This document shows positions 1 to 55,946 of a stretch of DNA of 64,000 bases, in pieces. Origin of the DNA: Yponomeuta sedellus (Eukaryota; Arthropoda; Insecta; Lepidoptera; Yponomeutidae); the NCBI GenBank assembly GCA_934045075.1, contig OW203722.1, positions 12,834,796-12,898,795 on the forward strand, in the 5' to 3' direction. A model generated the notes under the pieces. It was given only the letters and a program-made list of their open reading frames with translations. It was not told the DNA's origin and did no database searches. Within the stretch, counting starts at the first letter, position 1. Each line of letters starts with the position of its first letter. The translations under genes and the position numbers were made by a program.

Positions 1-90
1 ACAACCGATTGCAATTGTGCACTGCGTGCATGGATAGCGCAAACGCACGCAAGAAATTGTGTAAGAAACTCAGAACACTGCAGTTTTTGA

Positions 91-858
91 TTCAAGAAAA
101 CACAGACTGACACTGTTATCCCAATAACGTCTTGTCATCCGTGGCAACACAAAATGGCAGCATTCCATTGCTATATTCACCGTTTGCTAACTATGCCAAT
201 GTCTTCTGCTAATTACAACAAGGAACTAAATACCATCTATCAAATAGCAGTTGCAAACGGATATAGCAGGCGAATGATTGATAGGCTGGTGGTCAGGAAG
301 CGGAACGGTATGGTTAGTAGACTTTTATACGCAGTGCCACCTGAAAGGCCTCAAAAAATGAAGTCAAGTATTACCTATGTAGGTCCAATTTCTGAAAAAA
401 TCCACGGGACGTTAAAAAGATCTGGGATACGGGTTGCGTTCAGGAGGAGCAACTCTTTGGCTAGAAATCTGTGCAATCAAAAAGAGAGGGTGGATAGATT
501 CCAGCGGTCTGGGGTGTATAGAGTTGCTTGTCCGGAATGTAATGGAGTGTATATTGGCCAGACCGGTAGGAGTTTTATAACTCGGTATAGGGAGCATGTG
601 GCGGCTTTCCGAAACAATCATCCGGATAAATCTCATTTTGCCAAACACCTTTTGGATACGGGTCATGTACTTAATAATAACCATAATTTGGAAATTTTAC
701 ACACCTGCAGTAAGGGGTTGAGATTGTCTATACTTGAACAGCTGGAAATTTCCAAATTATCTAGGGATAGGTTGTTTACAATGCTGAATGAACAGGTGGG
801 CAGCTCCTCTATTTCCCCATTAATCGATATATTTGCAAAAAACAACAATAGCCCATAG
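91..858 (+). pseudogene. Penelope-like element protein, C-terminal RT remnant plus GIY-YIG endonuclease
   Basis: The frame is open from the in-frame TGA at 88-90 to 858. The first methionine is at 154, but recognisable protein starts upstream: residues reading KTQTDTVIPITSCHPWQHK match the usual end of the Penelope reverse transcriptase. In the methionine-numbered protein (234 residues) the endonuclease core is at about 120-200. It shows GVY (120-122), a CPEC pair (C126, C129), GVYIGQTGR with YIG at 133-135, a basic residue in ITRYREH (143-148), a histidine-rich KSHFAKHLLDTGH stretch and the acidic EQLEI helix (195-199). GIY-YIG nucleases nick target DNA for retroelement insertion. The endonuclease looks intact; the polymerase is missing, so this copy cannot move alone. 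Truncation may be natural or due to the window edge. Confidence 0.8.
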
Positions 859-930
859 GCGGTTGAAACGGTTTAACGGTCACCAGTTTAACGGTTACAT
901 TGCGTCATCGGGGGGAGGGGCGGCCTAGCC

Positions 931-938
931 TATAAATA
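931..938 (+). promoter_or_regulatory. TATA box of the Penelope-like element
   Basis: A canonical TATAAATA lies in a GC-rich context, 30 bp upstream of TCACTTG at 961-967, which fits a Pol II start site. The distance matches the usual TATA-to-start spacing. The predicted transcript would begin almost exactly at the first paired base of the ribozyme-like fold. Start-site mapping is not available, so this is inference from spacing. Confidence 0.55.
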
Positions 939-962
939 CGGAGCGTTTTTGCGGAGACGGTC

Positions 963-1032
963 ACTTGCATTTGGGAGCCTGAGGATGCCTCGTGTTAGAG
1001 GCGAAACGCGTCGCGTGTTTTCTCACACAAGT
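963..1032 (+). ncRNA. hammerhead-ribozyme-like fold
   Basis: The catalytic-core strings occur in the right order. CTGAGGA is at 979-985 (the CUGANGA box). Stem II is GCCTC 987-991 paired with GAGGC 998-1002 around a 6-nt loop. GAAA is at 1003-1006, followed by a very short stem III (AC/GT around GC) and GTC at 1010-1012, with predicted cleavage after 1012. Stem I starts with C978-G1013 and G977-C1014 and has a distal helix ACTTG 963-967 with CAAGT 1028-1032, leaving an internal loop. Minimal hammerheads with very short stem III are known from Penelope-like elements. One unpaired T (986) between the CUGANGA box and stem II is a weakness, so activity is not assured. Confidence 0.6.
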
Positions 1033-1304
1033 ATTGGTGTTGGTGGTGGTGTGTTCGTGTCTTGCTTCTGCTTGAAAAAGTGGGAGGGAGGGCGGTGCAT
1101 TAGCTAGCCGCATGGTGCTTGTGGGATTTTTGGCGGAATTCAGCAAAGTCATTTTAACTTGTTAATACAGTTGTTTCTGGTTGATTCTGAGCTGATTTGC
1201 ATCAGAGCCACCCGGAACCTAGGCGTAGGTAGGCGGGAAGAGAGGGAAAAGTTTGTTATCCTTTATTAAGTTACTTGACGATTACTCGTAAACTTATAGA
1301 GCCT

Positions 1305-1361
1305 CTAAATAGGTTTTCAAAATTGTCCTTAGCACGGGTTAGTGCATTAAAAAGAGTATAA
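1305..1361 (+). repeat. 5'-truncated SINE 3' tail with target duplication
   Basis: This 57-bp piece is the 3' part of the tRNA-derived SINE found at 3.6, 11.5, 11.9 and 17.2 kb: CTAAATAGG..., then GCACGGGTTAGTGCATT and AAAAAGAGTATAA. It is flanked by TTATAGAGCCT at 1294-1304 and 1362-1372. A tail-only copy with a direct duplication is the expected product of 5' truncation during target-primed reverse transcription. It also fixes the true 3' end of the family. Confidence 0.7.
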
Positions 1362-1689
1362 TTATAGAGCCTACTTAGCAGCAATAATTTTCCTTTTAAC
1401 CTCGTTATATGTGCTACTGCTTTATTTTTTTATCTATCTTATGTTTTTGATCTTTTCTCGAACTTCAAAGACCTTTTTTTTTCTTATATTTGTCGTTTTC
1501 AGATTTTTATCCGTATGTAATATACGGCGATATTACTTGACAAATTTAATAGTACGACACAGGGTATCCTAGTGTGGGGCCAGAAGCAATGTATGTGCCA
1601 GTATGTAAAATGTTATGTTATAGTTTTAGGCCAACGGGAAGTACCCGATAAATTATGATTCCCATGAGTGTCGAAATATACGTTTTTTT

Positions 1690-1852
1690 GGTGGCTTAAA
1701 CAGCCATAACTTTTTTGCGTTAACTTAGAAGTTTGGGTTTTTTACCACTTGAAGGGACTGTTTAAAATTAAGTTTAAGGTTTAAATTTTAACTCGATACA
1801 TCCACGCGTTTCCGAGATAAAGCGTCTTCACAGACAAACGGACGGGATTGAA
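1690..1852 (+). repeat. dispersed lepidopteran repeat 1 (copy a)
   Basis: Contains the CCATAACTTTTTTGCGTTAA and CGCGTTTCCGAGATAAAG strings that recur at 16925-17130 and, inverted, at 34175-34290. I recognise this as a common non-coding moth repeat, usually ending next to a TCTGTCCGTCCGT-like tract. No coding capacity. The 370 bp between the SINE tail and this repeat (1373-1689) shows nothing recognisable. Confidence 0.55.
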
Positions 1853-1914
1853 AGACAGTTTTAACAGTGAATACAAAAGCAAAAAGCAAAAACCATCAAG
1901 TAAAACTTTATTCG

Positions 1915-2215
1915 ATATCAACCCTTGTACGTGTATGTCCCCACTGCTGGGGCACGTGTCTTTTCCTGCATCGTAGGAAGGTTAGGCCATACTCCACCGC
2001 AGGGGCAAAGTCCGGGTTGGTGGAGGATTGTAAGACAGTAGCGGGTCTTACTGTCAGAAGTTATCAAGCCGCCTATAAGGCCTCTAACATAGCTTAACGA
2101 CCCCATGACATGACAGCCGGCAGCAAATGACGTGCCGGAAAAATGCCACTAGCGGAAGTCACGGGCGGTCACCTAGCCTGCGTTTGACCGCCCCTGTTGT
2201 TGCTTAACTCAAGTG
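1915..2215 (+). repeat. dispersed lepidopteran repeat 2 (copy a)
   Basis: Contains CCCCACTGCTGGGGCACGTG, the GGTTAGGCCATACTCCACC block, AAGTCCGGGTTGGTGGAGGA and, further on, GACAGCCGGCA and GGCGGTCACC. The same blocks in the same order recur at 15650-15885, 34300-34690, 35075-35250 and (minus) 37490-37565. It is a non-coding interspersed family typical of moths. The short open frames across it are chance. Confidence 0.65.
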
Positions 2216-2756
2216 ATTGCTAGAAACCTTATTGAATAATAATCAAAAATAACAACTTGTTAGTGTCGCTTTATCGCTGTCGCTCAGTAACAGCTTAGAG
2301 ATAAAGCGAGAATAGGCGTTTACTTAAAGGACGATAAAATAAAAATCATCCCAGTGTCGTGTGTGCAGCAGAGGCTAAATGGCCGTTAAATAGGTAATTG
2401 TAACTGCCGAGATTAATGATAAAAATAGATAGATCGAGAGCACATTATTGTGCATAAATATAGAAAAGAATTACGTATTTCCTATCTATCTACGTAGATA
2501 TTTCTTTAACTAATAATACAGCGGCGGCTTTGTCACCAAAAGTGATCTCTTCCAGACAACCTTTAATATAATCATGTTAATTGAATAAAGATACGAGTAA
2601 GCCATATATTATCTTTAGTCGTTTTTTTTTCTTCGTCGTGGTCGACGTCGGATGTCCTAGAATGAAATACTTCGACCAAATAGTAGACGCACTAGCGAAG
2701 GGCGATATGAAAAGTCTTCGAAAACGGCGTGCATTCATGCCACAAGAAAATAATGT
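2216..2756. other. no recognisable feature
   Basis: AT-rich unique-looking sequence. A lysine- and arginine-rich open frame (2581-2910) overlaps its end, but its arginine codons come from the GC-rich arm of the inverted repeat that begins at 2757, so I do not call it a gene. Confidence 0.4.
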
Positions 2757-3191
2757 TGAGGCTGGGCGCATGCTGAGACGCAGGCGACGCAGCACAGCGC
2801 AGCGTAGATTTTGTAAAGCATGTAACGTCATCGTTATTAAGCTACGTACGCTGCGGCGCAGGCACGTGCAACGCAGACATGTGTTTGCCCTGCTCTGCGT
2901 CTCGTTGTAGTGCCGACAGATTTCTGCGCGACGCGTGCACGTCGAGGCGTGTTTACTAACAATTTTGTTGCAATGACAGAATATTTAATTGAATTAGGTA
3001 GTCCGCCGTGAACCTTGTTTCAATGATACAAATCATCCAGACTATAAAAAAAAGACATTGAAAGAGTTATTATGGGTGAGAATTACCAAGGAATGGAGCG
3101 AATAGTTGCGTCGCTGCATGCGCTGCCTCAACCGCCCTACCCTGTATTGAACTGTGCTGCGTCGCCTTGTCTCACCATGCGCCCAGCCTCA
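2757..3191. repeat. inverted-repeat (foldback) element
   Basis: The segment 2757-2797 (TGAGGCTGGGCGCATG..., then GGCGACGCAGCACAG) is almost exactly inverted at 3152-3191. The arms are about 40 bp, differ at only a few positions, and lie about 355 bp apart. Both arms are rich in GCGTCGC-type words, unlike the AT-rich surroundings. This fits a foldback or non-autonomous DNA element. I could not define a target duplication. Confidence 0.5.
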
Positions 3192-3194
3192 TGG

Positions 3195-3275
3195 AGCAAA
3201 AGCGAAAGTTTGTCTAGGATCGTTGCAAGTGACAAACCCTGCTTACACCTCAGGGATGGAATGTGAGAAGTCTTA
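3195..3275 (+). repeat. dispersed lepidopteran repeat 3 (copy a, diverged)
   Basis: AGGATCGTTGCAAGTGACAA followed by ACCCTGC and TCAGGGATGGA corresponds to the GTGGCAAGTGG...ACCCTGGTCTCTGCC...GGATGCAGACGTGA pattern seen at 38390-38480 and 63735-63832 and, inverted, at 59585-59900 and 60610-60880. It is a common moth repeat. This copy is short and diverged. Confidence 0.45.
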
Positions 3276-3342
3276 CGTTTTTTTAAAAAACGTATTTACG
3301 TTTTTTGCTATATAATTGCTGTATGTATAATATGTAATAGTT

Positions 3343-3404
3343 TATCTTAAGTATTTTATTTTTACGTATATGTATATGTATCTTAAGTATTTTATTTTTA
3401 CGTA
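3343..3404. repeat. 26-bp direct duplication
   Basis: The unit starting TATCTTAAGTATTTT and ending TTTTTACGTA occurs at 3343-3368 and identically at 3379-3404, separated by 10 bp of TATG-rich sequence. A simple local duplication in AT-rich DNA. Confidence 0.7.
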
Positions 3405-3593
3405 CGTAGGGTTGACAGTCGGATTAAGTTGCAATGACGATTCCGCACGTGTACTGAACGACTATTTTTAATACAGTTGCGAAAAAATAAGCAATTTAAT
3501 AAAGAAAAAATGTTTGGAAAATGGCGCCAACCGTAAAAAAATATAAGCAGAGATTTTTTTCTTCACCCATTCTCGTAGGCAAAGGGAACTATG

Positions 3594-4100
3594 ATTACAC
3601 TATTTTTATTTTTAATGCACTAACCCGTGCTAAGGAACAAATTTAAAAACCTATTTAGAGGCTAAAAATTTCACCCATGCCGGGATTCGAACCCGCAACC
3701 TCTGGCTATCCGTACCAGCGCTCTACCAATTGAGCCAATGGGCGACTCACGCCCATTGGCGTGAGTCTTTTTAGCCTCTAAATAGGTTTTTAAATTTGTT
3801 CCTTAGCACGGGTTAGTGCATTAAAAATAAAAATAGTGTAATCATGTGGGTACAGTGATATCGTTCCGATGTTAAAACCTAACTGCAAAGAAGGTAGTCG
3901 GGGCTGTAAGTAATGCAATTTGCTTAAGTCAGATGTCGCTGCCTGTACGTAATACAGAGAATATTGTAAAGAGGTTCGAAATTTCACTGATGCCGCGAGT
4001 CGCCCACTGGCTCAATTGGTAGAGCGCTGGTACGGATAGCCAGAGGTTGCGGGTTCGAATCCCGGCATGGGTGAAATTTTTAGCCTCTAAATAGGTTTTT
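3594..4100 (-). mobile_element. tRNA-derived SINE copy with inverted 5' part and 13-bp target duplication
   Basis: Flanked by AAAGGGAACTATG at 3581-3593 and 4101-4113. A tRNA-like unit lies on the minus strand at 3673-3743, with the family 3' tail (minus) reaching the left duplication. A second tRNA-like unit on the plus strand is at 4002-4073, with A box TGGCTCAATTGG and B box GGTTCGAATCC. The two halves face each other. They join at a small hairpin, GACTCACGCC 3744-3753 with GGCGTGAGTC 3758-3767. The plus part ends at ATAGGTTTTT. The direct duplication shows one insertion event. The opposite orientation of the halves suggests 5' inversion during reverse transcription. Confidence 0.75.
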
Positions 4101-4113
4101 AAAGGGAACTATG

Positions 4114-6320
4114 CCCATACACCCAAGTCTTCAGTAGAATTTTTTTATTGATATGAAATGAAAATGAAATTTAATGATATGAAATGAAACCTAACTTAAC
4201 TCATTCAATCAAATCATTAAATCTGATATTGAAAAAAAATAGTAGGTCATAAAAACTTCTATGATTTTTTTTAGTAAAATCTTCATGGTTGGTTTTTCTT
4301 TTTAATAGCCATTATTTTGACAGTTGGGAAAGATAACGCACGAGTGCGGGAAAAGTAAAAAAAAGCACGAGTGTGTAATAGCCCACATCCCGCACGCACG
4401 CTATACGTCCCTGCAATACGCCACTTTTTGAGCAACTGTATTAAAAAGAATATTCCTCATCTTATTTTTTTTGGTGCCTCAATTTAAACCGATTACATGC
4501 TGTTGGCAACCCTACTCGCAACGAATCCACCCAACTCCAACACAACACAACAGAGCGTAGAGTGGCACAGTGCACTCAAAGTGCTATCTGATCAATCCAT
4601 TATCCGAGCAAGCTCTGTCCAGGAGCCCGTTAGGCACTCGCAACTTGGCGATGGCGACACACATTTTCCATTTCCCCCCTTGTCCTTACCGGCCCAGTTT
4701 CGCCTCTTCCATAATTCAATCCATACCGAATCCATTGTGCGACGATACACAGGAATGGCGGGCACAATACACATATGCATTAACTCACCCGGGGCCGTTG
4801 TTAGTTAGGTTGAAAGTTTTTGCGGATACTTTATATGGCAGAGGATAATGTTATGATACGAATAAGAAACGGTTTGAGTGATTTTGTGAGGTTAGTAAGA
4901 TTGTAAATAATATTCTCCAGAGGAATATTAAAGCCGTATACACAGTCTGTGTTTGTATACAGAATAGAGTATGCACTAACGCGGGTCGCTCCCGCATTTT
5001 CTTGATCCAGTCCATTTCGGCGAGATCCATTACCTCGAGAGTGGCGGCAAGAAGCAATCTCATTGAATGACCGTCTTCCCCTTTATGCCCCCATCTCTTA
5101 CGCTCGCCTCCTCCCACCGTCTGATCCACACCAATCGGTAAATATGCGTGTTAAATATGTATGTGCTGTAAGATGCTCGTAAGTGTATTAGATTCTGCTT
5201 GCTTTTTCATTCTGTCAAATACTTATGTGTGAACCACCTAATAGAAAAAGCAACGAGTTGCTTGTCTGTCGTTTCTATTTTGGCATAAATGGCAGAATTA
5301 TCAAACTTCATGAGTAGAGTAGGCAGCTAATGCATTAGCGATTGTACTGCACTCTGCTTTAAGGAGAGTGCCCTAACTTTACATTATTTGCTGTCAGCAA
5401 CAAAGCTTAAGTCATAACTTAGTGGAACTTGAAATACACTTCACACGAAGTGACTAGACTTTTCCATTAGGGGCAATTATCAGGCACTACGGTCGGATCC
5501 CGTGCTTTCCCCACTTTGGAACAACCCCATCGCTTCGCGGGCGACGAAGCCTGTTAGAGATAACGTCATAAAGTCGCCGATGCAGAGCCGGACTAAGTAA
5601 CGTCTTTGCTGTTACGGTGTCCTCGCTGCGGAATAATGGACCCCGCCCCGCGCGCGCCTTCCCGCTCCGCCCGCCGAACCCGTCCAACTAAACTAAACTT
5701 TTAAGCCGAATTCAGATTCTACTGCATCCACCTTCAGCTAATCTTGAATGCAAATTGCGTGTCTCCACTTATTCGCCATTTCCTCGTGTTAACACTTCCA
5801 CATTAAGCGAAGCACTTAGCATTATTGCGGTGATCTTATCTGTCTCAGGTGGAGCGTATCAATATTGGTTCGGGCTAAGGCAAGTCAAGAACGTGTTAAG
5901 CATATTTATTCGTTAACAGGTTCTCCCCCTTAACCTGTCTACGTACAGTCCAATAAAGAGTCACTCAGTCACTTAATCAATATCCATTGTCCGACGTCGG
6001 CGCCAACATATGGTATCGAGGCTTCGCAAACCAGCCCCTATGGCCTAATGGCGGATCAAACCTTCTATATTCGGCACTCTCCGCTTCTCCCCCGCTCGGC
6101 TAATGGAGCACACTGATGGACGTCACTCTCTATTTCGACTTGCACACTGAGGCTTCCATGATACACATTCGGCGCTCTAATGAAGTGCACTTTCATGCTA
6201 CGATGAGGTACTAATGAGTGATTCACTTCAAAATAAATCCACTAATACAACTTACCTACAGGGTGTTAAATCATTCTTACATCTACGCATATTGGATACG
6301 AGAAGAAACAACTTTCCCTA
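4114..6320. other. unique-looking non-coding sequence
   Basis: No protein similarity recognised in any frame. 4310-4450 contains repeated GCACGAGTG / CCGCACGC words that may belong to an old repeat. 5480-5700 is a GC-rich patch with CCCCGCGCGCGCC, and 6050-6200 another. The 92-103 residue open frames at 4497-4848 lack domains and overlap each other, so I treat them as chance. Confidence 0.4.
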
Positions 6321-25180: not shown

Positions 25181-26398
<1,218 letters not shown>

Positions 26399-27051: not shown

Positions 27052-28065
27052 GTGCAATGCATTAACGGTCTGGGATTAACGTCTAGATCAGAGCCGCTAG
27101 CCGTTACGCGAGGTGTAATCCAAGGTTCAATTCTCGGGCCCACCTTATTCTCCCTGTATACATCTAGCATGTGTCGATCTATCCAGTTCGCAAGATATCA
27201 TATGTATGCCGATGATACGCAGATGTACATACACACAACAGCTACCATACCCAACTTAGCAGATTCAATTAATCAGCTCAATTTAGATTTGGAAGCCATC
27301 GCACTATGGTCTATTAAACACAGTCTAATCCTAAATCCAAACAAGAGCGTTGCCATTATTTGTGGGACTAAACACCAGGTTCACTCCCTGAAACTATTAG
27401 ATCCTGTAATAAAAATTGGAGGTAATACAGTACCTATTCATGATTGTGTCCGTAATCTGGGTCTTATGATGGACGAGTCCCTACGATTCGAAACCCATGT
27501 CCAGCAAAAAATTGGTAAATGCTTTGGTTTACTCAAAACGTATAAAATCAGACCATTTCTAACTAATGAGATTAGATATCAGTTGTGTAGTAGTTTGGTT
27601 TTATCGCAGTTGGGCTACTGCGACATAGTCTATGGTCCCTGTATTTTTAAGAAAACGGCTTGTGCAATGCAGCGTGTCCAGAACGCTTGCATGCGTTATT
27701 GCTACCAAATCCCCAAAAGAGAGCACATCTCCCCTCATCTTCTAGCAAAGGGGGTCTTGAATATGGCGAACAACAGGACATTAAAACTGTCTTGCTTCTT
27801 GTTTGATGTATACAAGACTCGCATGCCGACATACTTGTATGCGAAGTTGGCCTGGTCCGTCAGAGCACGTAGTTCATTGCTACTTATACCCAAACACTCC
27901 CTCAGCAGTACCAAGGGTTGTTTCAAAATTGCAGCATCGAAATGTTGGAATGACCTGCCGCCGCCTTTGCGCGTTGCACGAACCCTTCCAACATTCCGAA
28001 TTAAATGTCGTAAATGGCTGCTGCACAAACAATCCTTGGCTTCTGGTGTCCTTCAAGGGCTGTAG
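27052..28065 (+). pseudogene. LINE reverse transcriptase, palm and C-terminal part (family B)
   Basis: A 337-residue open frame without internal stops, lacking its start because of truncation and the nested insertion. It carries RGVIQGSILGPTLFSLY (residues 20-36), catalytic YADD at 52-55 (YHMYADDTQMYIH), LNPNKSVAIICG, VRNLGLMMDESLRFE, and a C-terminal region with QRVQNACMRYCYQIPKREH and ASKCWNDLPPPLR typical of CR1/jockey-type LINEs. No RNase H is seen. In the first block IQG replaces the usual PQG. The methionine at 27052 is not a real start: related sequence extends upstream in the same direction through the insertion to 26540. The single long frame suggests moderate age. Confidence 0.82.
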
Positions 28066-28491
28066 TGGATGAAATTTATATACCTATATGTTAAGTTTTT
28101 ACATCTGTCATCATGCGCGTGTGTTCTTTATAACATTAGTATAATTATACCCAGATAGGTATAATTTAGTTTAAGAAAAGGCCTTGCCTGAAAATCGGCA
28201 ACTAGTTGCATATTGGTGTACATTAGTTACAAACCGAGGCACAGACCTTTTTGTCTTCATTTGTAATTTATAAACTGTTAAAGAATAGTCTCTTTAAACT
28301 GTCATTAATGCCTCTAGTATAAGTGATTGTTGTGTCTTATTTCGCTTGAAGACAAATAAATATATTCTATTCTATTCTATAAGTAAACCATGACCGTCTT
28401 TTGGTTTTTATATCATTTATATGATTACGTTAAATAAAGTCTTTTAAACATCAATCAATCAGTACTATTTCGACTCTACTATTAAGGTAAA

Positions 28492-28518
28492 GGTCGGATC
28501 GCGTGAGTCGTTCAAATT
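28492..28518 (+). repeat. left terminal inverted repeat of the 5.2-kb transposon
   Basis: Begins GGTCGGATCGCGTGAGTCGT and matches the inverted 33691-33717 at 21 of 27 positions. The longest identical run is GAGTCGTT. TAAA precedes it. Confidence 0.75.
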
Positions 28519-28652
28519 TTGCGAAATGCTAATATTTAAATTTTTTGGAGTTTTTTTAAATTATTTGTAAATGAAAGTATAGTTATACTTACATTAGACA
28601 ATATTTTTATGAAGGCACCTTATTAAGCCTTGTAGTTTTGAAGTAAAGCTAC

Positions 28653-28724
28653 AGAGAGTAATGAAGTGGTGGAGGGCAATGAAAATCACCTGGAGTACAA
28701 TGAAGTTGTCAGGAGAGTAATGAA
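28653..28724 (+). repeat. left subterminal cluster of GGAGNNNAATGAA (4 copies)
   Basis: Copies at 28653-28665 (first base A instead of G), 28671-28683, 28692-28704 and 28712-28724, spaced 18-21 bp and all on the plus strand. The same motif is clustered near the other end. Such subterminal arrays commonly bind transposases, but here that is inference. Confidence 0.8.
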
Positions 28725-29428
28725 AAAACAATAAAGTACTAATAAATAAAGAAGAAAATACTACGTATTTTTATAATAATTACTATTTAATTTGTTTTGA
28801 AAGTTATATTATCATTTATTTTAATATTTTGTTTACTTTTAACCACAACGTACTACTTTTATTCAAAATGAATATGTAGGCATATTCAAAAAAAAATAAT
28901 ATATTTTATAAACTCTGTTTTTAATACATATTTCATTGGTTGATATTATATAGGTATTCAATATTATAATTTATATTATATACCATAATTAACTTTTGTT
29001 TCTTTTAAGTTTGTTTAAATCAGAAAATGAAACTCTTTATAGTTACTATAATATTTATTTAGCATACATATTTATTTGACATTAATAATACACATTTATT
29101 CTTATAACATTTTTTTTGTTTTTGGTATTAGGTACGTTTTAAAACAGTTAATCTTAGGAAAATAATCATAAGTCAGACTTTTTCGTTACTTCGTAATTTC
29201 AGTCTTCAAAAAATAACTCAAATCAGGCACATAATATAATAATAACTACTTAATAATATTATCGAAACATTTTTCATCATTAAACATAAACTTTAAGATA
29301 CTCTCTTTAAACTCTATTATTCTCAATTTTTTACTTCTGTATTTAATCTAACTTTGAGGAGAGAACTAAACTAAAAACGAGATAATTCTTAAAATATAAA
29401 GATAGGAACTTATGTAGCATAAAAGCAG

Positions 29429-32400
29429 TCATTTAAAATTAAAATTTGGCAATTCACTAAAGCTAAATTGCCCTCTTCGGTTTTGGTTTGGTTCAATTAA
29501 ACGTTGGACGATTCGAAATTCTGCCACGATATCTTCATCAGTCATTGCAGGCCAAACGAATGTCCTTGTTCTTCCTGTATTTTTTTTCAAAAAACCGACT
29601 GTGTATTCATTTGTAGAGTGTCTACATTCAAGTATTTTTCCCACATAATGAATCAATTGGGATTTGTTCTGATCACTTTGGTAATTTACCACTACCCAGT
29701 CATCTACGTTATACTTTAGTTCGTAATTGTCAGTGTTCATGTTCACTTTAATGTTTTCTTTGTTTGTTACGGTTGTCATGGTTTCTGTATCTTTTATTAA
29801 GTTTATGTTCTTTGTTTTATCTTCTTTTTCTCCTTGTAAATTGTATTTATCTGTGTTTACGTTCTCAGTTTCGGGTTCTTTTAAACTATCTTTAACTTGT
29901 AATTTTGTTGATGCTATCAACTCTTCGAAGTCCTGGTCATGCTGAATTTTACGTTTAGTTGCTTTACGTAATTGGGCTGAATAACTTGGGTAATCAAGTT
30001 TAATATTCGATAAGATTTTGGGTCGTTCTTTTTCTGGCATTAAAGCAGGCTCAGAATCTATAGGAATGCTTTCGTTCTGAGTCTGGAATAGAAACCCGTC
30101 ATATTCATTTAACAATATGTTGCTATCAGCATTAGCGTCAAATGTTTCAGAGTCTAATTCGCATGGTGATAAGTCGTCTACATATTTTTGGTTGATGTTA
30201 TATGTATCGAGTTGAGCATCAATATCAAAATTAAACTTTGACTGATTTTTCCGAGTTATCTGGCATGATTCGAAATCCATTGTTCCAATATCCATACAAT
30301 GCTTACATGGCGAGTAGCTCTCTAAACAATGAAAACAGCTGAGGCACCTGAGACGTACAGTGAATGGAGCTTCACATGACCACAAAGCTTGGTGCACTTT
30401 AATAGTACCTCTAAATGCCGGGATGAAAGGTGGATACCTTTTTTGTTTAATCTCTTGCTCTGAGATCACAAATATTTCAACGCTTTGAATATTTTTGCGA
30501 ATCAGTTCTTCAAATTCTTTGAAAGAGCCAACATCACCACCAAACCTTACATGGTTATCAGCCGTCCTTTTTATGACTGCCCCAACGCCATCAGGAGCCC
30601 CTTTACCATGGCCTGCTTCCTGATAATTCCAGGTAACAACACCGACCGACGGGATTAGTTCTTCGATTTTGGTGATCATATAAAATATAAATCTGTTCCT
30701 GTATTGACTTGAAGGAGAATCTGACAAAAAATGAACTTTTGTCAAAAAAGGAACCAAAGTTTTTGCTCTTTCGAGGACGGGTATAAGATGAGCCCATACT
30801 GCTGACGCATCATGGTCCAAGCATTCACTCATTGTACAAATCGATTTTGCTTTAATACTTTTTGTAGGATCATTGTAATACATCACTACTGTGTGTAATG
30901 ACACTTGCCCTCTGCTACCACCAAAGTGGTATGACTGAACTTCTTCGTGAAATTTAAGGGAATAATTCTCACTGAAGTCAATATGCAATAGAACTTCGGT
31001 TTCTGACAGATTAGTTTTAAGCAATTTGACTGCAGCAAACTGCATCACAATATTTCGAGTGTGCTGGAAAAATTTTGGTAAAATTTCATCCAACTTGTGG
31101 ATAATAGTACGTGGTTTATCTTGATATTTCTTTTTGTTTGTAACTGTTTTGATTCTCGCTTCACCATCTTTCCCTCTGTAAGTCTGTTTTTCAATAATCC
31201 ACTGGCTGTAATATATTTTTTCATTATTATTAAATTCTCTATAATTTAGTATGTTATGTTCGCAGTCGTGACATGTTCTTGCAAGACATTTTTCTTGATA
31301 AGGATCGCAACAAAGCTTTTTCAATAGGTCTGTTGATGAACATTCAGTTATTATCCTCGCCTTTTTGAGAGACTTCACAATTAGTTCAACATTGGCATGC
31401 AATTTGCATTGGCAGGTATCACGTTCTACTTTCGGGAAGACGACCCAGAATGGTCTTAATCTACAAAATACAGCATAACTTAATGCTTCTTTTCCATGCT
31501 GCTTTCGATATTTATCATGTAAATTTTTCAGATTATCATTTAGGTAACGTTTCTGTTTTTTGACACCACGTTTTGCGATATATTCTTTTTTTCCTGCCGC
31601 TACACGACTGTTCGCATCCTCTTCAAAGAACTCTTGTAATATTTTCTCCCTTTCCTGTGCCTTTATCCGTCGTTCTTCTACCGTTTTCTTTCTAAGTGAA
31701 AATGGAATCTTGGATTTAAGTTTATGTTTAATTATTTTATCTTGACATTGTTGGACAGTATTTTCAGCAAAACTTCTTTTTTCCGTCTTGTTTAATTTCT
31801 TGTAAGTTTTGATTTGTCCCTGTATTAAAGTTTCACTGAATAATAACTTCTTCTTCACTTCTTCAACCTTACCTTTTTCAAAATCTTCCACTAGTGAGTT
31901 GACTTTCTTTTCCACTGTATCTTCTATATGTTTCTGTTTCTTCATATCTTCTAATAGACTCTTCATATATTTAGCTTTTCTTTCAAATTTGTTCTTTTCC
32001 TTGTTCAGCTGATTAACTTCAGCTTTTAACAACCTGACCTCTTTAGATGTCTTGTACCTGTATTTTCGAAAAGATGAAGAACTCATTTTCGTACTTTCAT
32101 CCTGTTGTATACTGGTTTTTGGAGTATCCAAAGTAGCAGAACTCATTTTCTTAAAGTCCTGTTGTTTACTGGTTTTTGGAGTATCCAAAGCAGCGAGAGG
32201 ATCTTCATTAGAAATTTCGTCGTCCCTGTCATGTTCCTGTAATGGGTTTACCTCAACGTCGGCGTCGCTTTCTGGTGGTGAATTATCTATTAAAATTGTT
32301 TCGAGTTCTTTTTGCCTCTTCTTTTTATTTAAATAATTTCGAGAATTCTTCCTCCAACGTTTTCTTTGCTCACGTTTGTCTCTGCTACTCATATCTTCAA

Positions 32401-32572
32401 TGCTTAGAATTTTTTTTCTTTCTTTCTGTAATAGATATTTTTTTCTGTTTTTCTCTTTTTGAATTTCACGTAACACAGGGTCATTTTTATTTTTGTCATA
32501 TTTTTCCTTTTTTCTTATTCTATCTTTTAGCAGCTTTTCTTCTTTCGAGAGTTTCTTTTTTTTGTTCGCCAT
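29429..32572 (-). CDS. putative transposase, 1047 residues, uncharacterised family
   Basis: One uninterrupted frame starting at ATG 32572. Residues 1-80 and 175-330 are lysine/glutamate-rich and coiled-coil-like. A metal-site candidate is RDTCQCKLHAN (C387, C389, H392) with C421, C422, C429, C434, C437 and H439. Next comes a candidate RNase H-like core: D532 in LLHIDFSENY, D618 in VHFLSDSPSSQYRN and E652 in NYQEAGHGKGAPDG, giving D-x85-D-x33-E. A second Cys cluster is at C743, C746, C749, C756 and C759. Residues about 957-1027 (VDDWVVVNYQ...YVGKIL...FVWPAMTDEDI) resemble an SH3-like/Tudor-like barrel. I recall proteins with FSENY...SDGPATQYR...EASHGKGAPDG as widespread uncharacterised invertebrate and fish sequences. 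The TIRs, target duplication and subterminal motifs around it support a transposase role; catalysis itself is inferred. Confidence 0.8.
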   Translation of the reverse strand: MANKKKKLSKEEKLLKDRIRKKEKYDKNKNDPVLREIQKEKNRKKYLLQKERKKILSIEDMSSRDKREQRKRWRKNSRNYLNKKKRQKELETILIDNSPPESDADVEVNPLQEHDRDDEISNEDPLAALDTPKTSKQQDFKKMSSATLDTPKTSIQQDESTKMSSSSFRKYRYKTSKEVRLLKAEVNQLNKEKNKFERKAKYMKSLLEDMKKQKHIEDTVEKKVNSLVEDFEKGKVEEVKKKLLFSETLIQGQIKTYKKLNKTEKRSFAENTVQQCQDKIIKHKLKSKIPFSLRKKTVEERRIKAQEREKILQEFFEEDANSRVAAGKKEYIAKRGVKKQKRYLNDNLKNLHDKYRKQHGKEALSYAVFCRLRPFWVVFPKVERDTCQCKLHANVELIVKSLKKARIITECSSTDLLKKLCCDPYQEKCLARTCHDCEHNILNYREFNNNEKIYYSQWIIEKQTYRGKDGEARIKTVTNKKKYQDKPRTIIHKLDEILPKFFQHTRNIVMQFAAVKLLKTNLSETEVLLHIDFSENYSLKFHEEVQSYHFGGSRGQVSLHTVVMYYNDPTKSIKAKSICTMSECLDHDASAVWAHLIPVLERAKTLVPFLTKVHFLSDSPSSQYRNRFIFYMITKIEELIPSVGVVTWNYQEAGHGKGAPDGVGAVIKRTADNHVRFGGDVGSFKEFEELIRKNIQSVEIFVISEQEIKQKRYPPFIPAFRGTIKVHQALWSCEAPFTVRLRCLSCFHCLESYSPCKHCMDIGTMDFESCQITRKNQSKFNFDIDAQLDTYNINQKYVDDLSPCELDSETFDANADSNILLNEYDGFLFQTQNESIPIDSEPALMPEKERPKILSNIKLDYPSYSAQLRKATKRKIQHDQDFEELIASTKLQVKDSLKEPETENVNTDKYNLQGEKEDKTKNINLIKDTETMTTVTNKENIKVNMNTDNYELKYNVDDWVVVNYQSDQNKSQLIHYVGKILECRHSTNEYTVGFLKKNTGRTRTFVWPAMTDEDIVAEFRIVQRLIEPNQNRRGQFSFSELPNFNFK

Positions 32573-32918
32573 TTATGTCTGCAAATATCATTGTAAAAAT
32601 TAATCATTTGGCCACAGTATTTACATTTTTAATAGGTAGGTTTATGCAATTTTTGTTAGTATTAATATTATTTTATTTAAAACGGTTTTTTTTGCAATAA
32701 ACTAAACAGTAACTTATAATTTAGGGAAAAAAATATTTTTATCAATTTCATGAAATAATAGTGTATCGAAAGATTTTAAGGGTAAATAAATGTTTAAGAA
32801 ATACATAACTATCTATTTTTAAAATTATACAATTTTTATTTTTATTTAAAAATTATACATAGGTATTCTTAATTATTATGTATATATCAATATACATAAA
32901 CTCAAGTAGAAAAATAAA

Positions 32919-33537
32919 TTCATTCTCCTCCGAGTCGCTTCATTACTCTCCAGATTCCATTTTGGAAATACGGAGGGTAATGAAACGGAGGAGAATGAAG
33001 TTTTGCCCTTTTTTCAACATTACTCCATTATAGTGTTTTCTAAAAATCTCTAAAATATAACTAAGTTTCCCATCGTTTGTTGGAATGACCTATTTGCTTT
33101 AGTGATTTTTTAAAATACATACTTACCTTGAAAAACGCCGGAGTATAATGAAACAAAATCTTGACAAACTAGAGTTTTTAATACGAGAACTTAATTAACA
33201 AATTATTCTAGCGACACACGTCCACTCGCTATCCGAACGATGACAGACTGGTGCGAGAAGAGTGCGCGGGGAGTGGGTTCGTGTTGCACAGAGTCGGATT
33301 CAAAGAGATGTTTTAGTTTCCGTCGTTGCGGAGGATAATGAAGTTTTTTTTTTGACAAAACTGTAAACTACGTTATCTTATATAAAAAATCATGTAAAAA
33401 ATATAATATTTTACTACATAACTACCTGAATAGAGCCGTTACGCATAAAATATAGCGATGTTTGTTTATTATAAAAATATACGGTAAAAACAAAAGTTGA
33501 AAAAAAAAGGTGTGATTTAACAACGGAGGTTAATGAG
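32919..33537. repeat. right subterminal copies of GGAGNNNAATGAA (7 copies)
   Basis: Minus-strand copies at 32919-32931 and 32939-32951; plus-strand copies at 32972-32984, 32987-32999, 33140-33152, 33330-33342 and 33525-33537 (last base G). One copy (32939-32951) is identical in all 13 bases to the left copy at 28712-28724. They lie upstream of the transposase-like gene, between its start codon and the right end, so they could also serve in its regulation. Confidence 0.8.
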
Positions 33538-33690
33538 ATTTTGGCAAGTTTTTGCTGAATTTCTCGCTACTTAGTGTATTAATGATTAAATATATTAAGT
33601 GTACTGCAAGTGCTTTTTAAGTAGATCGTCCGCATATATAAATGTTTTTCTTATATATTAAAAAAATATCAAATCGTGGCCCGAAACAGG

Positions 33691-33717
33691 AATTTCAACG
33701 ACTCGCGATATCGTACC
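33691..33717 (-). repeat. right terminal inverted repeat of the 5.2-kb transposon
   Basis: Read on the minus strand it begins GGTACGATATCGCGAGTCGT. TAAA follows it on the plus strand. See the left terminus for the comparison. Confidence 0.75.
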
Positions 33718-33721
33718 TAAA

Positions 33722-34174
33722 CCATCGTTCGCTGCATACCAGACGCCTTTGATTTATCTACACTTCACAAGGGGGTTGTTATTGAATCTAATGTTTCTTA
33801 AATAAGTTTAATTTAACATCAAACAGCCAGAGTTTTCAACTAGAAATCTGTAGAGCAGGACTCTATAGTTTTCCTGTTCAAATTCCAACTACCACCGTTA
33901 TTCAGTCTGTCTGTCAGTTAGCAGGGCGAGTTATCCCAACCCTAAGTGATTACAGACCGTTTATTTTATTGAAGCACACTATTTATTGCGAATGCCACTG
34001 CTTTTTCTTGCCCAACGCTTCTTGCAGGCCTTGTGCAAAGCGGAGAGATCTAATTTATGGTAGAGTAGATACTCTACACATTGTAAGGTATATCGCTCGC
34101 GGCACCTACCGTTCGAATTTTAGATGTAGGTGAGTAGTGCGCAGAGACACTTAGTTTTTGTAACATTTTGTGTT
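33722..34174. other. no recognisable feature
   Basis: Flanking sequence to the right of the transposon, without domain-bearing frames or recognised repeats. Confidence 0.3.
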
Positions 34175-34290
34175 TTTTAGGGTTTCGTACCTCAAAAGGA
34201 AAAACGGAACCTTAAAGGATCACTTCATCGCCTCCGTCCGTCCGTTCGTCTGTCTGTCACGACCCTTTATCTCGGAAACGCATGGAGGTA
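34175..34290 (-). repeat. dispersed lepidopteran repeat 1 (copy c)
   Basis: GGGTTTCGTACCTCAAAAGG, CCGTCCGTCCGTTCGTCTGT and CCCTTTATCTCGGAAACGCA are the inverse of the end of copies a and b. Confidence 0.6.
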
Positions 34291-43990: not shown

Positions 43991-45354
43991 ATTGAATTGA
44001 GTCATATGGAGTTAGAGGGACACCGTTAGAACTTATAAAATCGTATTTAAGTGATCGAACGCAGAGCAAACACACCTCAGTAATATTTGCGCTAATACAA
44101 ACCATGAAGTTACATATACTTCAAACGATCGCTTGTCTCTACATGGTGTTCCGCAAAGAAGTATACTTGGCCCATTAATTTTCTTGCTCTACAAAATGAT
44201 TTACCTTTAAATGTAAGCTACCCAATGACTCTTTTCGCAGACGATAGCACGGCAGTCATTAAACAAACTGAAAATAGGGATTACGAAAGTGAAATAAACA
44301 AAACTCTCGAAGAAATAATGCAGTGGCTTGACTCTAACTGCTTGAAAGCAAACCTGAATAAGACAAAAATTATGCATTTCCATCAGAGGGTTAATGCACC
44401 GTCAGTAAAGTTGGTATATGACAAAATAACTATTGAAGAGGAATCTATCACAAGATTTCTAGGTTTGATAATTGACAAAAACTTGAACTGGAAATGCCAA
44501 GCAGAGGTAGCATGTAAAAAACTCAGTAAATCAGCCTACGCTTTACATAAATTAAGTAAAATTGTTAGTAGAGATGCTTTACTTTCAGCCTTTCACGGAT
44601 ATGTTATGTCAACTTTGCGATTTGGTATTATATTTTGGGGCAATAGCACGGACATAACTACCATATTTAAAGCACAGAAAAGGTGTCTTAGGTCAATGTG
44701 CCAATTACAATCAACTGAAAGCTGTAAGCCCTATTTTAAAAAGCATAAGACCCTCACACTTTCTTGTTTATATATTTATGAGGTTGCTATATTTGTTAAA
44801 ACTAATGAGTCGTTATTTCCGAAAGCTCACAAAAACCAATACAGGTCGATACGCCATCCACACAAACTCTTAATTGAACCATGTAAAACTACTTTTAAGC
44901 AAAAAAGCATTGTGACTATGGCACCAAAAATTTATAATAAGTTACCTGATGAAATTAAAACATTAAATACAATTATATTCAAAAGAAGACTATATGACAT
45001 TTTAGTAAATAAATGCTACTATGACATAAAAGATTTCTTTGCTGATAAAATGTAATGATAACTTTGTATTTGACATTTTATATTTGTACCATTTAATTTT
45101 GTTTTGACATTTTTTTATTTTATCATAGCTTAAGTATTTAAATTTTATTCTACAATTTTACTGACATTTCTAATTTAATGTGATTATTACTATTTTCATT
45201 TGACTATTAAAATTCATATTAATTATATTCTATAGGACATGATTTGTATGCCTATTTAGGTAGAGCACATAGCAACCCAACTTTTCAAATTAATAACATC
45301 TTTATGTACTTGTGACTCACAGATCAATAAATGAAATATGAATATGAATTATGA
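43991..45354 (+). mobile_element. 5'-truncated LINE, family C, with likely target duplication
   Basis: The reverse transcriptase remnant runs from YGVRGTPLELIKSYLSDRTQ at about 44005 to the stop at 45055, then a 300-bp AT-rich 3' UTR ending ATGAATATGAATTATG. ATTGAAAT occurs at 43983-43990 and 45355-45362, a plausible 8-bp target duplication. The same family is seen at 61.2-63.5 kb. Confidence 0.72.
44225..45055 (+). pseudogene. LINE reverse transcriptase C-terminal part (family C)
   Basis: 276-residue frame starting inside the palm domain. FADD is at residues 4-7 (MTLFADDSTAV), followed by LKANLNKTKIMHF, ITRFLGLIIDKNLNW, the thumb and the C-terminal tail with APKIYNKLPDEIK. Upstream, HGVPQRSILGPLIFLLY can be read from about 44139 in a frame that joins at an A run near 44200 if one base is missing, so the methionine at 44225 is not the true start. 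Only one of the catalytic aspartate pairs remains; motif A is lost by 5' truncation. No RNase H is present. Confidence 0.8.
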
Positions 45355-51189: not shown

Positions 51190-53342
51190 AATACTAGCTT
51201 TTGCCCACGACTCCGTCCGCGTGGACTTTAGTTACTCAGCATGCTTCAATAAAAGGTGCAGACGATTTTTGTTCTGATCAATTATCTGACTCTGCGACAA
51301 ATCGTAGAAGTACAAAATAAATTTTGGAAGAGATTCAAGGAACAAAATTTTGCAACCCCCTTCACTCCCTTAAAGGTTAAATTTAAAAAAAACGGCGAAA
51401 CTTGCGTTCAATCAATTGTTTTGAAGAGTATTTATTTTCAGTTTCAACAAAATTGGACAACATTCTTTATACCTCCCATGCAAATTTTGGCAACCGTTTT
51501 CGCCCCCTTACGGGTTAAATTTAAAAAAATCTGGTCTTATTTCTTGCTTACATTATACATAGACCCCCTGTGCAAAATTTCAGCTTCCTAGGTCCAACGG
51601 CTTGGGCTGGGCGTTGATGAATGAGTGAGTGAGTGAGTGAGTGAGTGAGTGAGTGAGTGAGTGAGTGAGTGAGTGAGTGAGTGAGTGAGTGAGTGAGTGA
51701 GTGAGTGAGTGAGTGAGTGAGTGAGTGAGTGAGTGAGTGAGTGAGTGAGTGAGTGAGTGAGTGAGTGAGTGAGTGAGTGAGTGAGTGAGTGAGTGAGTGA
51801 GTGAGTGAGTGAGTGAGTGAGTGAGTGAGTGAGTGAGTGAGTGAGTGAGTGAGTGAGTGAGTGAGTGAGTGAGTGAGTGAGTGAGTGAGTGAGTGAGTGA
51901 GTGAGTGAGTGAGTGAGTGAGTGAGTGAGTGAGTGAGTGAGTGAGTGAGTGAGTGAGTGAGTGAGTGAGTGAGTGAGTGAGTGAGTGAGTGAGTGAGTGA
52001 GTGAGTGAGTGAGTGAGTGAGTGAGTGAGTGAGTGAGTGAGTGAGTGAGTGAGTGAGTGAGTGAGTGAGTGAGTGAGTGAGTGAGTGAGTGAGTGAGTGA
52101 GTGAGTGAGTGAGTGAGTGAGTGAGTGAGTGAGTGAGTCAGTCAGTCAGTCAGTCAGTCAGTCAGTCAGTCAGTCAGTCAGTCAGTCAGTCAGTCAGTCA
52201 GTCAGTCAGTCAGTCAGTCAGTCAGTCAGTCAGTCAGTCAGTCAGTCAGTCAGTCAGTCAGTCAGTCAGTCAGTCAGTCAGTCAGTCAGTCAGTCAGTCA
52301 GTCAGTCAGTCAGTCAGTCAGTCAGTCAGTCAGTCAGTCAGTCAGTCAGTCAGTCAGTCAGTCAGTCAGTCAGTCAGTCAGTCAGTCAGTCAGTCAGTCA
52401 GTCAGTCAGTCAGTCAGTCAGTCAGTCAGTCAGTCAGTCAGTCAGTCAGTCAGTCAGTCAGTCAGTCAGTCAGTCAGTCAGTCAGTCAGTCAGTCAGTCA
52501 GTCAGTCAGTCAGTCAGTCAGTCAGTCAGTCAGTCAGTCAGTCAGTCAGTCAGTCAGTCAGTCAGTCAGTCAGTCAGTCAGTCAGTCAGTCAGTCAGTCA
52601 GTCAGTCAGTCAGTCAGTCAGTCAGTCAGTCAGTCAGTCAGTCAGTCAGTCAGTCAGTCAGTCAGTCAGTCAGTCAGTCAGTCAGTCAGTCAGTCAGTCA
52701 GTCAGTCAGTCAGTCAGTCAGTCAGTCAGTCAGTCAGTCAGTCAGTCAGTCAGTCAGTCAGTCAGTCAGTCAGTCAGTCAGTCAGTCAGTCAGTCAGTCA
52801 GTCAGTCAGTCAGTCAGTCAGTCAGTCAGTCAGTCAGTCAGTCAGTCAGTCAGTCAGTCAGTCAGTCAGTCAGTCAGTCAGTCAGTCAGTCAGTCAGTCA
52901 GTCAGTCAGTCAGTCAGTCAGTCAGTCAGTCAGTCAGTCAGTCAGTCAGTCAGTCAGTCAGTCAGTCAGTCAGTCAGTCAGTCAGTCAGTCAGTCAGTCA
53001 GTCAGTCAGTCAGTCAGTCAGTCAGTCAGTCAGTCAGTCAGTCAGTCAGTCAGTCAGTCAGTCAGTCAGTCAGTCAGTCAGTCAGTCAGTCAGTCAGTCA
53101 GTCAGTCAGTCAGTCAGTCAGTCAGTCAGTCAGTCAGTCAGTCAGTCAGTCAGTCAGTCAGTCAGTCAGTCAGTCAGTCAGTCAGTCAGTCAGTCAGTCA
53201 GTCAGTCAGTCAGTCAGTCAGTCAGTCAGTCAGTCAGTCAGTCAGTCAGTCAGTCAGTCAGTCAGTCAGTCAGTCAGTCAGTCAGTCAGTCAGTCAGTCA
53301 GTCAGTCAGTCAGTCCTTTGAATTTTATATGTATATATAGAT
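51190..53342 (+). repeat. lepidopteran repeat containing a hugely expanded tetranucleotide tract
   Basis: The left part (51190-51620) starts CTAGCTTTTGCCCACGACTC and ends GGCTTGGGCTGGGCGTTGAT, with two internal blocks of TTAAATTTAAAAAAA. The right part after the array (53316-53342) is CTTTGAATTTTATATGTATA TATAGAT. In moth genomes this family carries only a short GAGT/CAGT tract between these two parts; here the tract is about 1.7 kb. Confidence 0.7.
51622..53315. repeat. compound microsatellite (GAGT)n then (CAGT)n
   Basis: 51622-52138 is perfect (TGAG/GAGT)n, 517 bp. 52139-53315 is perfect (CAGT)n, 1177 bp. The switch is a single sharp G-to-C change of the unit. The two 403-residue SVSQ frames over the second block are artefacts. 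Confidence 0.98.
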
Positions 53343-53456: not shown

Positions 53457-55946
53457 CTAGCCTGCGAGATGCAGCTTAACCCAGTGCGCCAGGATAGGAT
53501 TATCGATCTTGTCGGCAATGATCTTGAGAAGGCCATTGGCACTGCCGCGAACCCTAAACAAAAGGGATGCCGCTCTCTTTCGCATTATCGCGTGGAAGCC
53601 GTCCGTGTGTGTCTCAGCGAACATCCTCGAGGCGCTACAGTATCGCGGCAGCCCCAATAGCATCCTGTAGCCATTATTTTATTGAACACGGAGGGCATTG
53701 TACGCTCGCCACGAGAAGCTGACCCACAGACTGCACGTGTAAAATGATTGGCAAAATGCCTTGAATAAGGTTACTTTGACACTCCTAGTACATCGCGCAA
53801 ATCTGCGGGCCAACATGTTGCACCTTACGGCCAAAGCCCTCCGCTCTCTCTCAATATCCAGATCGTCTGACAGGTCCTCCTCCAGATCGTCTGACAGGTC
53901 CTCCGCAATCCAGTGACCCAGATACTTAAACTGCTTAACTCGCGCCAGCGGAGAGCCACACAGTTCAAGTGATGGCACGTTTATTAGTGTTTTGTTCTTG
54001 GCCGTGAAAACAAGAAGCTCGCGCTATCTGAGGATGTCGGTCATCTCAGCCGGTAGATCCGTCTCTTGCGACAGCTTCTTCCATAGTACATCATAAGAAA
54101 CCAAATCGAAGGCCTTAGATAGGTCCAAGAAGCAGGCGTAAACTGGGGTCCTCCTGTCGGTGTAGTAACGGACAGTGTGCTTCAGGCACAATATCGCAGA
54201 CTCAGTGGAGAGTCCAGGACGGAATCCGAATTGTGCATCATTTAATGTCATGTTGGCACCTAGCTGACAGTCAAGCACACTGTCTAGCACCTTCGCTATA
54301 ATAGTAGCCAAGGATATTGGCCTATAGTAAGTCTTATCAGACGCATCACCTGTACGGTTCTTGATCACTGGGACCACAATAGTTTTCATAAGGGCAGTAG
54401 GTAGATAAGAATGCCTAATGCAGAACGTAAACAACATTGCCAGTACCCTCGACACATGAACCCCAGCATACTTCAAATGCTCTATGCTGAGACCATCATG
54501 TCCTGGCGATTGACCTCTCGCCATTCCTTTCATGATTAAAGCAACATCTTTTGCAGTCACTTTTAGGGGCTTACCGAGGCACGAGGGAGCGCTAACATCG
54601 GACCCTCGTGACCCTGCCCGCCCCAGAGGAGAATCGACTCTAAAACAATTCTTAAAAATATTTGCAGTTGTTTCTGGCTCACTACAACCTTCTACACTAA
54701 CGGGCAGGCCGGACCTGGGATTCAGCTTATTTGTTTCTTTCCAAAACTTTCCAAAATTTTTAGAGGTGTGGTAAGTCGCTATAATGTCCATTTTAATTTG
54801 TTGTTGATTGTTTTGGCACCATTTAAGTTTACTTTTGAAGTCTTTTCTAGAGGAATACATAAAGTCGTAAACAGGCCCTGCTGAAGGTTTTCCGAGAAGA
54901 CACCAATTTTGATATCCTAATCGGGCCTTTTGGTGAGCTACACTTACATATTTATTCCAGCCTATGACGTGCTTATGTTTTTTACCAATATTTTCCTTAT
55001 GACTATTTATAGAGGCCTCTTGAAGTGCAATTACAATATTTTCATCCAAACTATCTATTATTTTGTGATGTTCTAGGTCGTAACACATCGAGTCACAACA
55101 TTTCGACAATTCTTGGGGAAAGTCAATAGCTCTTAGTTTGTCCTGACATATTTCATAATACTTAGATATTTCTTCTTGTTTTCTTTCGCCCCACAAATAT
55201 TTGTTACATGTTTTTTCGGGTTCAATATTTACTGAGGTGATGAAGTTTAGATTACATGCAATTAATAGTGGAAAGTGATCAGACCAAAAGGTGTTACTGA
55301 TTACTTTAGCGCTAAGCACAGTTTGACGGGCCGCCTGTGTCACTACACAATGGTCTAAACAGTGAGGGCAGCCATGGGTATCACTGATAAACGTGAAAGA
55401 ATTTGCTGGAAGTAATTCCGTATTGGCGCACGACCAGTCACGCTCAATACAAAAGTTTGATAGCTCTTTATAAAATCATTCGCCCAGGTGAGCGTTATAG
55501 CCACCTAACATAAATACAGTTTCTACATTATAGTTCTCAATTATAGCGTTCACTTCGCTTAAACACTCTGTAAATTCCACTAAATTTATAGCTTGGTTAG
55601 TAGGCATATACACCGAGAAAATTAACAGCGAACGATCACAAATATCAATTTTTATAGCACATAGACGAACACTTTGGCATGGCACTATCGAAACGCAGTT
55701 AAAAACACTTTTTCTCCACAGCAATGCCACGCCCCCGTAAGGCCTCCCGCGAAGCAGACCCACCGACGTGTCCACCGCTGACTTGCCGGTCGCGGCAAAA
55801 TCCATGTCTATGTTCTCTAAGACCTGGAGATCATGGGGCAGGAGCCAAGTTTCTTGAAGCGCCATGATGTCGGTGGTCTTACATAAATCTGCAACACATT
55901 TGACTGACCGGGTGAGACCTTTGCAATTAAAACTGCAAATGTTCAC
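53457..55946 (-). pseudogene. LINE family D endonuclease-reverse transcriptase
   Basis: One original frame. Endonuclease: MNICSFNCKG (N), LQETWLL (catalytic E), SVYMPTN, then MLGGYNAHLGE where GDFNAH is expected, so the catalytic aspartate is replaced by glycine. A nonsense codon lies at 55476-55478. The reverse transcriptase connector (residues about 120-220 of the 439-residue block) is followed by SPGHDGLSIEHLK, YYRPISLATIIAKVLDSVL, FGFRPGLSTESAI and motif A in CFLDLSKAFD. The frame then breaks at 54024 and resumes in the same frame at ELLVFTAKNK, KQFKYLGHW and LLGLPRYCSASRMFAE. The skipped segment should contain the FADD/YADD motif, so catalysis is impossible. A 24-bp duplication (DLSDDL twice) is at about 53860-53905, and a third stop is at about 53680. 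Confidence 0.85.

Follow-up and report, generated by a model that had tools for sequence, protein, structure and literature searches.

A recently mobile DNA transposon, probably of the Sola superfamily, with a predicted DDD transposase and a Tudor-like tail in the moth Yponomeuta sedellus

A 5226-bp segment of the Yponomeuta sedellus genome, at positions 28492-33717 of the 64,000-nucleotide stretch analysed here (contig OW203722.1, 12,834,796 to 12,898,795; hereafter the window), is a real and complete mobile element that has moved recently. It is almost certainly a DDD cut-and-paste transposon, and its one uninterrupted gene encodes a 1047-residue protein that is most likely a DDD transposase, with catalysis predicted. 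We assign the element to the Sola superfamily as its probable home, by description (DDD, 4-bp target-site duplication) and not by sequence comparison. The original prediction of an intact DNA transposon in this place had its coordinates exactly right: the exact ends recur in five pairs genome-wide, and four copies are intact and full length.

Ends, copies and target sites

The element is bounded and marked by the following features.

28488-28491, no strand: left target-site duplication (TSD) TAAA, from flank comparison
28492-28518, plus strand: left terminal inverted repeat (TIR) GGTCGGATCGCGTGAGTCGTTCAAATT, 21/27 with the right end
28671-28723, plus strand: left subterminal motif array, three GGAGNNNAATGA sites, by motif count
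32920-33536, no strand: right subterminal motif array, five GGAGNNNAATGA sites on the plus and two on the minus strand, upstream of the gene
33691-33717, minus strand: right TIR GGTACGATATCGCGAGTCGTTGAAATT (as read on the minus strand), 21/27 with the left end
33718-33721, no strand: right TSD TAAA, from flank comparison

The 27-bp imperfect inverted repeat that had been predicted for the flanks, with 21 of 27 positions identical and TAAA immediately outside each end, is present in the sequence. A match of this size is unremarkable in such AT-rich DNA, where 21 or more identities arose in 27 of 100 shuffles. In the unshuffled sequence, no match reaches 21 apart from this repeat and the same repeat displaced by one base. 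Not striking by length, the TIR is yet specific, because GGTNSGATNNCGNGAGTCGTT, a G+C-rich pattern built from the element's two ends, matches only those ends in the window (2 matches with up to three mismatches allowed, against 0.09 expected). Across the whole genome (657.5 Mb) the exact pattern has 10 matches, which are both ends of five copies, and the reversed-pattern control has none; exact matches in three viral contigs (L001-L003) were taken as chance. The subterminal array that had been described is also borne out: the window holds 11 GGAGNNNAATGA sites where 0.41 would be expected, and 10 of these 11 lie within the element's non-coding ends. Rfam returned nothing at the gathering threshold over 28000-34200.

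Searching the genome with the protein, with scores computed for 44 of 931 candidates, yielded at least 45 matched stretches and loci for 30 of them. Four of the copies are full length with an uninterrupted open reading frame (ORF), namely the window copy (L004) and L005, L006 and L007. The DNA of each of the latter three aligns to the window copy over exactly positions 1-5226, and none of them extends past the predicted ends. Substitutions relative to the window copy number 1 in L005 and 25 each in L006 and L007, the last two also carrying small indels. Because the four copies sit in unrelated flanks, 19-31% identical across 200 bases, we regard them as separate insertions and not as a duplicated segment, and because a single base out of 5226 separates L004 from L005, transposition was recent.

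The fifth copy (C13:17552166-17558843; L009/L010/L049) has its ORF split into two matched stretches, one with two stops, and L008 is an additional decayed fragment. Outside its ORF, at element position 4749-4756, the fifth copy contains a nested insertion flanked by the duplicated 8-bp sequence ATGACAGA; a duplication of this size is expected for a hAT-type insertion. The joined flanks of L005, the one copy searched for an empty site, gave 41 matches and no clean empty site; they returned both halves of L005 and 38 right-side-only copies of a repeat. A place on C6 was rejected as an empty site, where both sides match (89% and 94%) but some 53 extra bases lie between them.

Five window-family copies have both ends, and all five carry a 4-bp flanking duplication that is identical on both sides: TAAA, ACCT, GGTT, TGCT and AATG. 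The duplication is therefore 4 bp long and not specific to TAAA, contrary to what the original prediction had assumed in proposing that empty sites should restore a single TAAA. Ends could be determined where near-identical copies existed, which was the case in six families, A-F, whose representatives share 40-67% pairwise identity over the core. The multi-copy relatives of the window family are B (L013, L016), C (L014, L015, L017, L018), D (L022, L026), E (L023-L025) and F (L027-L030); L008, L011, L012, L021, L033, 15 stretches without a locus and family G (L031, L032) lie outside the end analysis. The ends in B-F were read by comparing copies and then set by hand after inspection of the flanks, which moved them inward from the alignment limits, by at most five bases in D and, in several others, by a single one; with ends so placed, 4-bp TSDs flank 15 of the 15 complete copies resolved in B-F, and thus 20 of 20 across the six families. 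TSD pairing fails in L019, an incomplete copy of family C.

Over the 20 TSDs, position 1 is A or position 4 is T in 23 of 40 cases, where 12.4 would be expected, a mild palindromic A..T preference at the target that was noticed post hoc. A and T make up 61 of the 80 TSD bases, the window being 62% A/T. The TIRs begin with GGGTGAATCC in B, with GAGTGAATTTCC in C and with GGGTCATACACA or nearly so in D, E and F, so that termini, which had been offered for an uncharacterised family from a single copy, are now supplied for six families. By a 9-mer count, B, C and F each possess a distinct set of motifs that recur in the two non-coding ends, with at most one occurrence in the ORF; the same count gave none in D, E or H, and none in A either, the A array being degenerate. 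Family H is a single copy (L039, 2311-6678 on C34, the same place as L020) with an 867-residue ORF. Its candidate TIR (GGGTCAATATACAGTA/GGGTGAATATATGATA, 12/16 matching) and candidate TSD, ATAG, come from a scan demanding equal 4-bp flanks and were excluded from the TSD counts.

The predicted transposase

The gene runs through its 1047 codons with no internal stop, as the original prediction had it, and its features are listed here.

29429-32572, minus strand: single uninterrupted ORF, a 1047-residue putative DDD transposase
31262-31414, minus strand: probable zinc-binding module, CxCxxH ... C-x6-C-x4-C-x2-C, codons 387-437, before the core
30473-30997, minus strand: RNase H-like catalytic core by predicted fold, codons 526-700
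30977-30979, minus strand: D532, first acidic residue, core strand 1 (alignment and predicted fold)
30719-30721, minus strand: D618, second acidic residue, after core strand 4 (alignment and predicted fold)
30590-30592, minus strand: D661, third acidic residue, last core helix, in the motif HGKGxxDG (alignment and predicted fold)
30299-30337, minus strand: probable zinc site, C-x2-C-x6-C-x-H, codons 746-758, after the catalytic core
29483-29710, minus strand: C-terminal Tudor-like domain by predicted fold, codons 955-1030

The RNase H-like core is predicted with a mean predicted local distance difference test score (pLDDT) of 92.9, and its best VIA fold matches are retroviral integrases. The triad D532-D618-D661 is retained in 213 of 221 aligned sequences; six of the remaining eight have a gap, and one V and one E stand at the third place. 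The predicted core resembles those of retroviral integrases, of the Tc1-mariner transposase Mos1 and of IstA in where its three acidic residues fall, namely on strand 1, behind strand 4 and in the last helix, as judged by topology and not by superposition of the catalytic residues. The element protein differs from these enzymes in having no detectable sequence similarity to them and in carrying long insertions and zinc modules. The last ~75 residues are predicted to fold like the Tudor domains of the histone readers PHF19, MTF2 and SGF29; phmmer gives no sequence match to them.

Neither Pfam (E<=1) nor NCBIfam matches the protein, in agreement with the original prediction, which could assign it to no superfamily by motif, and a PDB sequence search found nothing relevant. 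A database search with the protein gave 713 matches, of which 120 are listed. The listed homologues bear labels such as 'hypothetical', 'unnamed' or 'uncharacterized', with the exception of P0089, which has a hAT-domain name; the name Sola is on none of the matches listed (120 of 713). Similar proteins had been expected to be common and uncharacterised in invertebrates and fish, and the named relatives among the matches listed do include many insects and one fish, the nearest coming from Loxostege, Euphydryas, Chilo and Spodoptera. No prokaryotic or viral relative was confirmed in the viral contigs (6 pattern matches) or the genome contigs (18 pattern matches). One full-sized relative, P0110, is filed under a Wolbachia metagenome-assembled genome and probably stems from the insect host, whose DNA would have been binned with it. 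A PHD-like cysteine pattern, as found by regular expression, lies near the C-terminus in 3 of 220 homologues (P0109, P0120, P0169); Pfam showed no PHD finger in P0120, the one of these run against it.

Superfamily assignment

Because the DDD triad and the 4-bp TSDs fit descriptions of Sola, we propose that the element is probably a Sola transposon. A 2009 Sola paper (Bao et al.) reportedly describes the Sola transposases as DDD, and a DDD-type single transposase would be one feature that the element shares with them. In the passages of the literature that we draw on here and below, 4-bp TSDs, occurrence in moths and a unit that lies between TIRs and is similar in length (bivalve Sola1 averages 5445 bp; PMC10294476) are further points in common. 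These sources treat Sola1-3 as groups of one superfamily (PMC4455052), give Sola2 4-bp AT-rich TSDs, AWWT in Dictyostelium (PMC3627910), and tabulate moth Sola elements that have inserted into a baculovirus (PMC4735498, PMC6983493, PMC5704228). The element differs in that its TSDs are not confined to AWWT, which accounts for 1 of 20, and in its Tudor-like tail, which the Sola descriptions in these passages do not mention. The Sola target is given as 'AT' in PMC5704228, which the 20 TSDs do not show, and the passages contain no link of this protein family to Sola.

The main rival is that the element belongs to an unnamed superfamily of DDD cut-and-paste transposons, related to Sola but outside it, which we judge possible but unlikely. 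The Pfam, NCBIfam and PDB sequence searches without a relevant match would fit an unnamed group, as would the uninformative names of the listed homologues, P0089 apart, and a TSD preference unlike the Sola statements in the published passages. On the other side, the DDD triad and 4-bp TSDs match Sola descriptions, and a family so common in insects is likely to be held in Repbase under some name. For the same triad and duplication length, the original claim that the protein has no named superfamily is not established and appears doubtful.

Membership of another named superfamily with 4-bp TSDs, be it Ginger, Chapaev/CMC or a user of TTAA such as piggyBac or Kolobok, is very unlikely. Ginger and Chapaev/CMC do make TSDs of this length, and retroviral integrases as the top VIA fold matches would be possible for an integrase-like Ginger protein, but the element protein lacks any Pfam match at E<=1 and its third conserved residue is D, not E. 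With piggyBac and Kolobok the element has the 4-bp duplication in common, whereas TTAA, the target of Kolobok (PMC9587614), is found in just 1 of the 20 TSDs and the other 19 copies lie at other targets; the missing Pfam match separates it from both. That a host gene or domesticated transposase lies by chance between inverted repeats is barely credible. In its favour, the ORF is intact and shows some constraint (L006 or L007 compared with the window copy gives 5 synonymous and 5 non-synonymous changes); against it, five dispersed copies have identical termini with different TSDs, and the genome holds at least 45 matched stretches. A hAT element was rejected, as hAT TSDs are 8 bp and those of the element are 4 bp in 20 of 20. 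Tc1/mariner, which duplicates TA, and Academ, with 3 bp, were rejected against the element's varied 4-bp TSDs, likewise 20 of 20 (PMC5199201).

Proposed mechanism and neighbouring sequence

We propose that the TIRs and the subterminal GGAGNNNAATGA sites would be recognised by the basic N-terminal region and the zinc modules. The DDD core would then cut the element out at its ends and join these to a target cut with a 4-bp stagger, the sites used having a mild A..T bias. The transposase may be tethered to chromatin by its C-terminal Tudor-like domain, which would bias insertion toward marked chromatin. A bolder proposal, which we consider distinctly improbable, is that the element represents a large unnamed animal DDD superfamily whose transposases have their own chromatin reader, with insertion steered by histone marks and not by DNA sequence. 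Within the unnamed-superfamily reading, the reader would be Tudor-like here, probably also in many relatives, and PHD-like in a few. If the chromatin-reader reading were true, steering by histone marks would account for how weakly the 4-bp targets are preferred. A single, narrow literature search, in a library that is incomplete, found nothing on a transposase with Tudor and PHD domains.

With the present data, a protein family with 713 matches, whose listed names are nearly all 'uncharacterized', gains exact termini, 4-bp TSDs and a predicted DDD fold. The Tudor-like tail is a less familiar feature, as are the termini, now known for six families in a single genome. Should the tail read histones, this would be a naturally occurring cut-and-paste transposase that carries its own module for targeting chromatin. 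Because near-identical intact copies mean recent movement, a two-plasmid transposition test is feasible.

Elsewhere in the window, two near-perfect tandem arrays, each with 99% matches, yield ORFs. A 1.1-kb (AAAT)n array of 285 copies at 25257-26398 gives a spurious 440-residue ORF, and a 1.7-kb (AGTC)n array of 423 copies at 51624-53315 gives two overlapping 403-residue ORFs. Reverse-transcriptase pieces, probably non-LTR, lie at 27052-28065, 44225-45055 and 54024-55343, with Pfam RVT_1 E values of 9.9e-10, 2e-5 (below Pfam's cut-off) and 1.2e-10, respectively. The first of these pieces ends ~0.43 kb to the left of the transposon.
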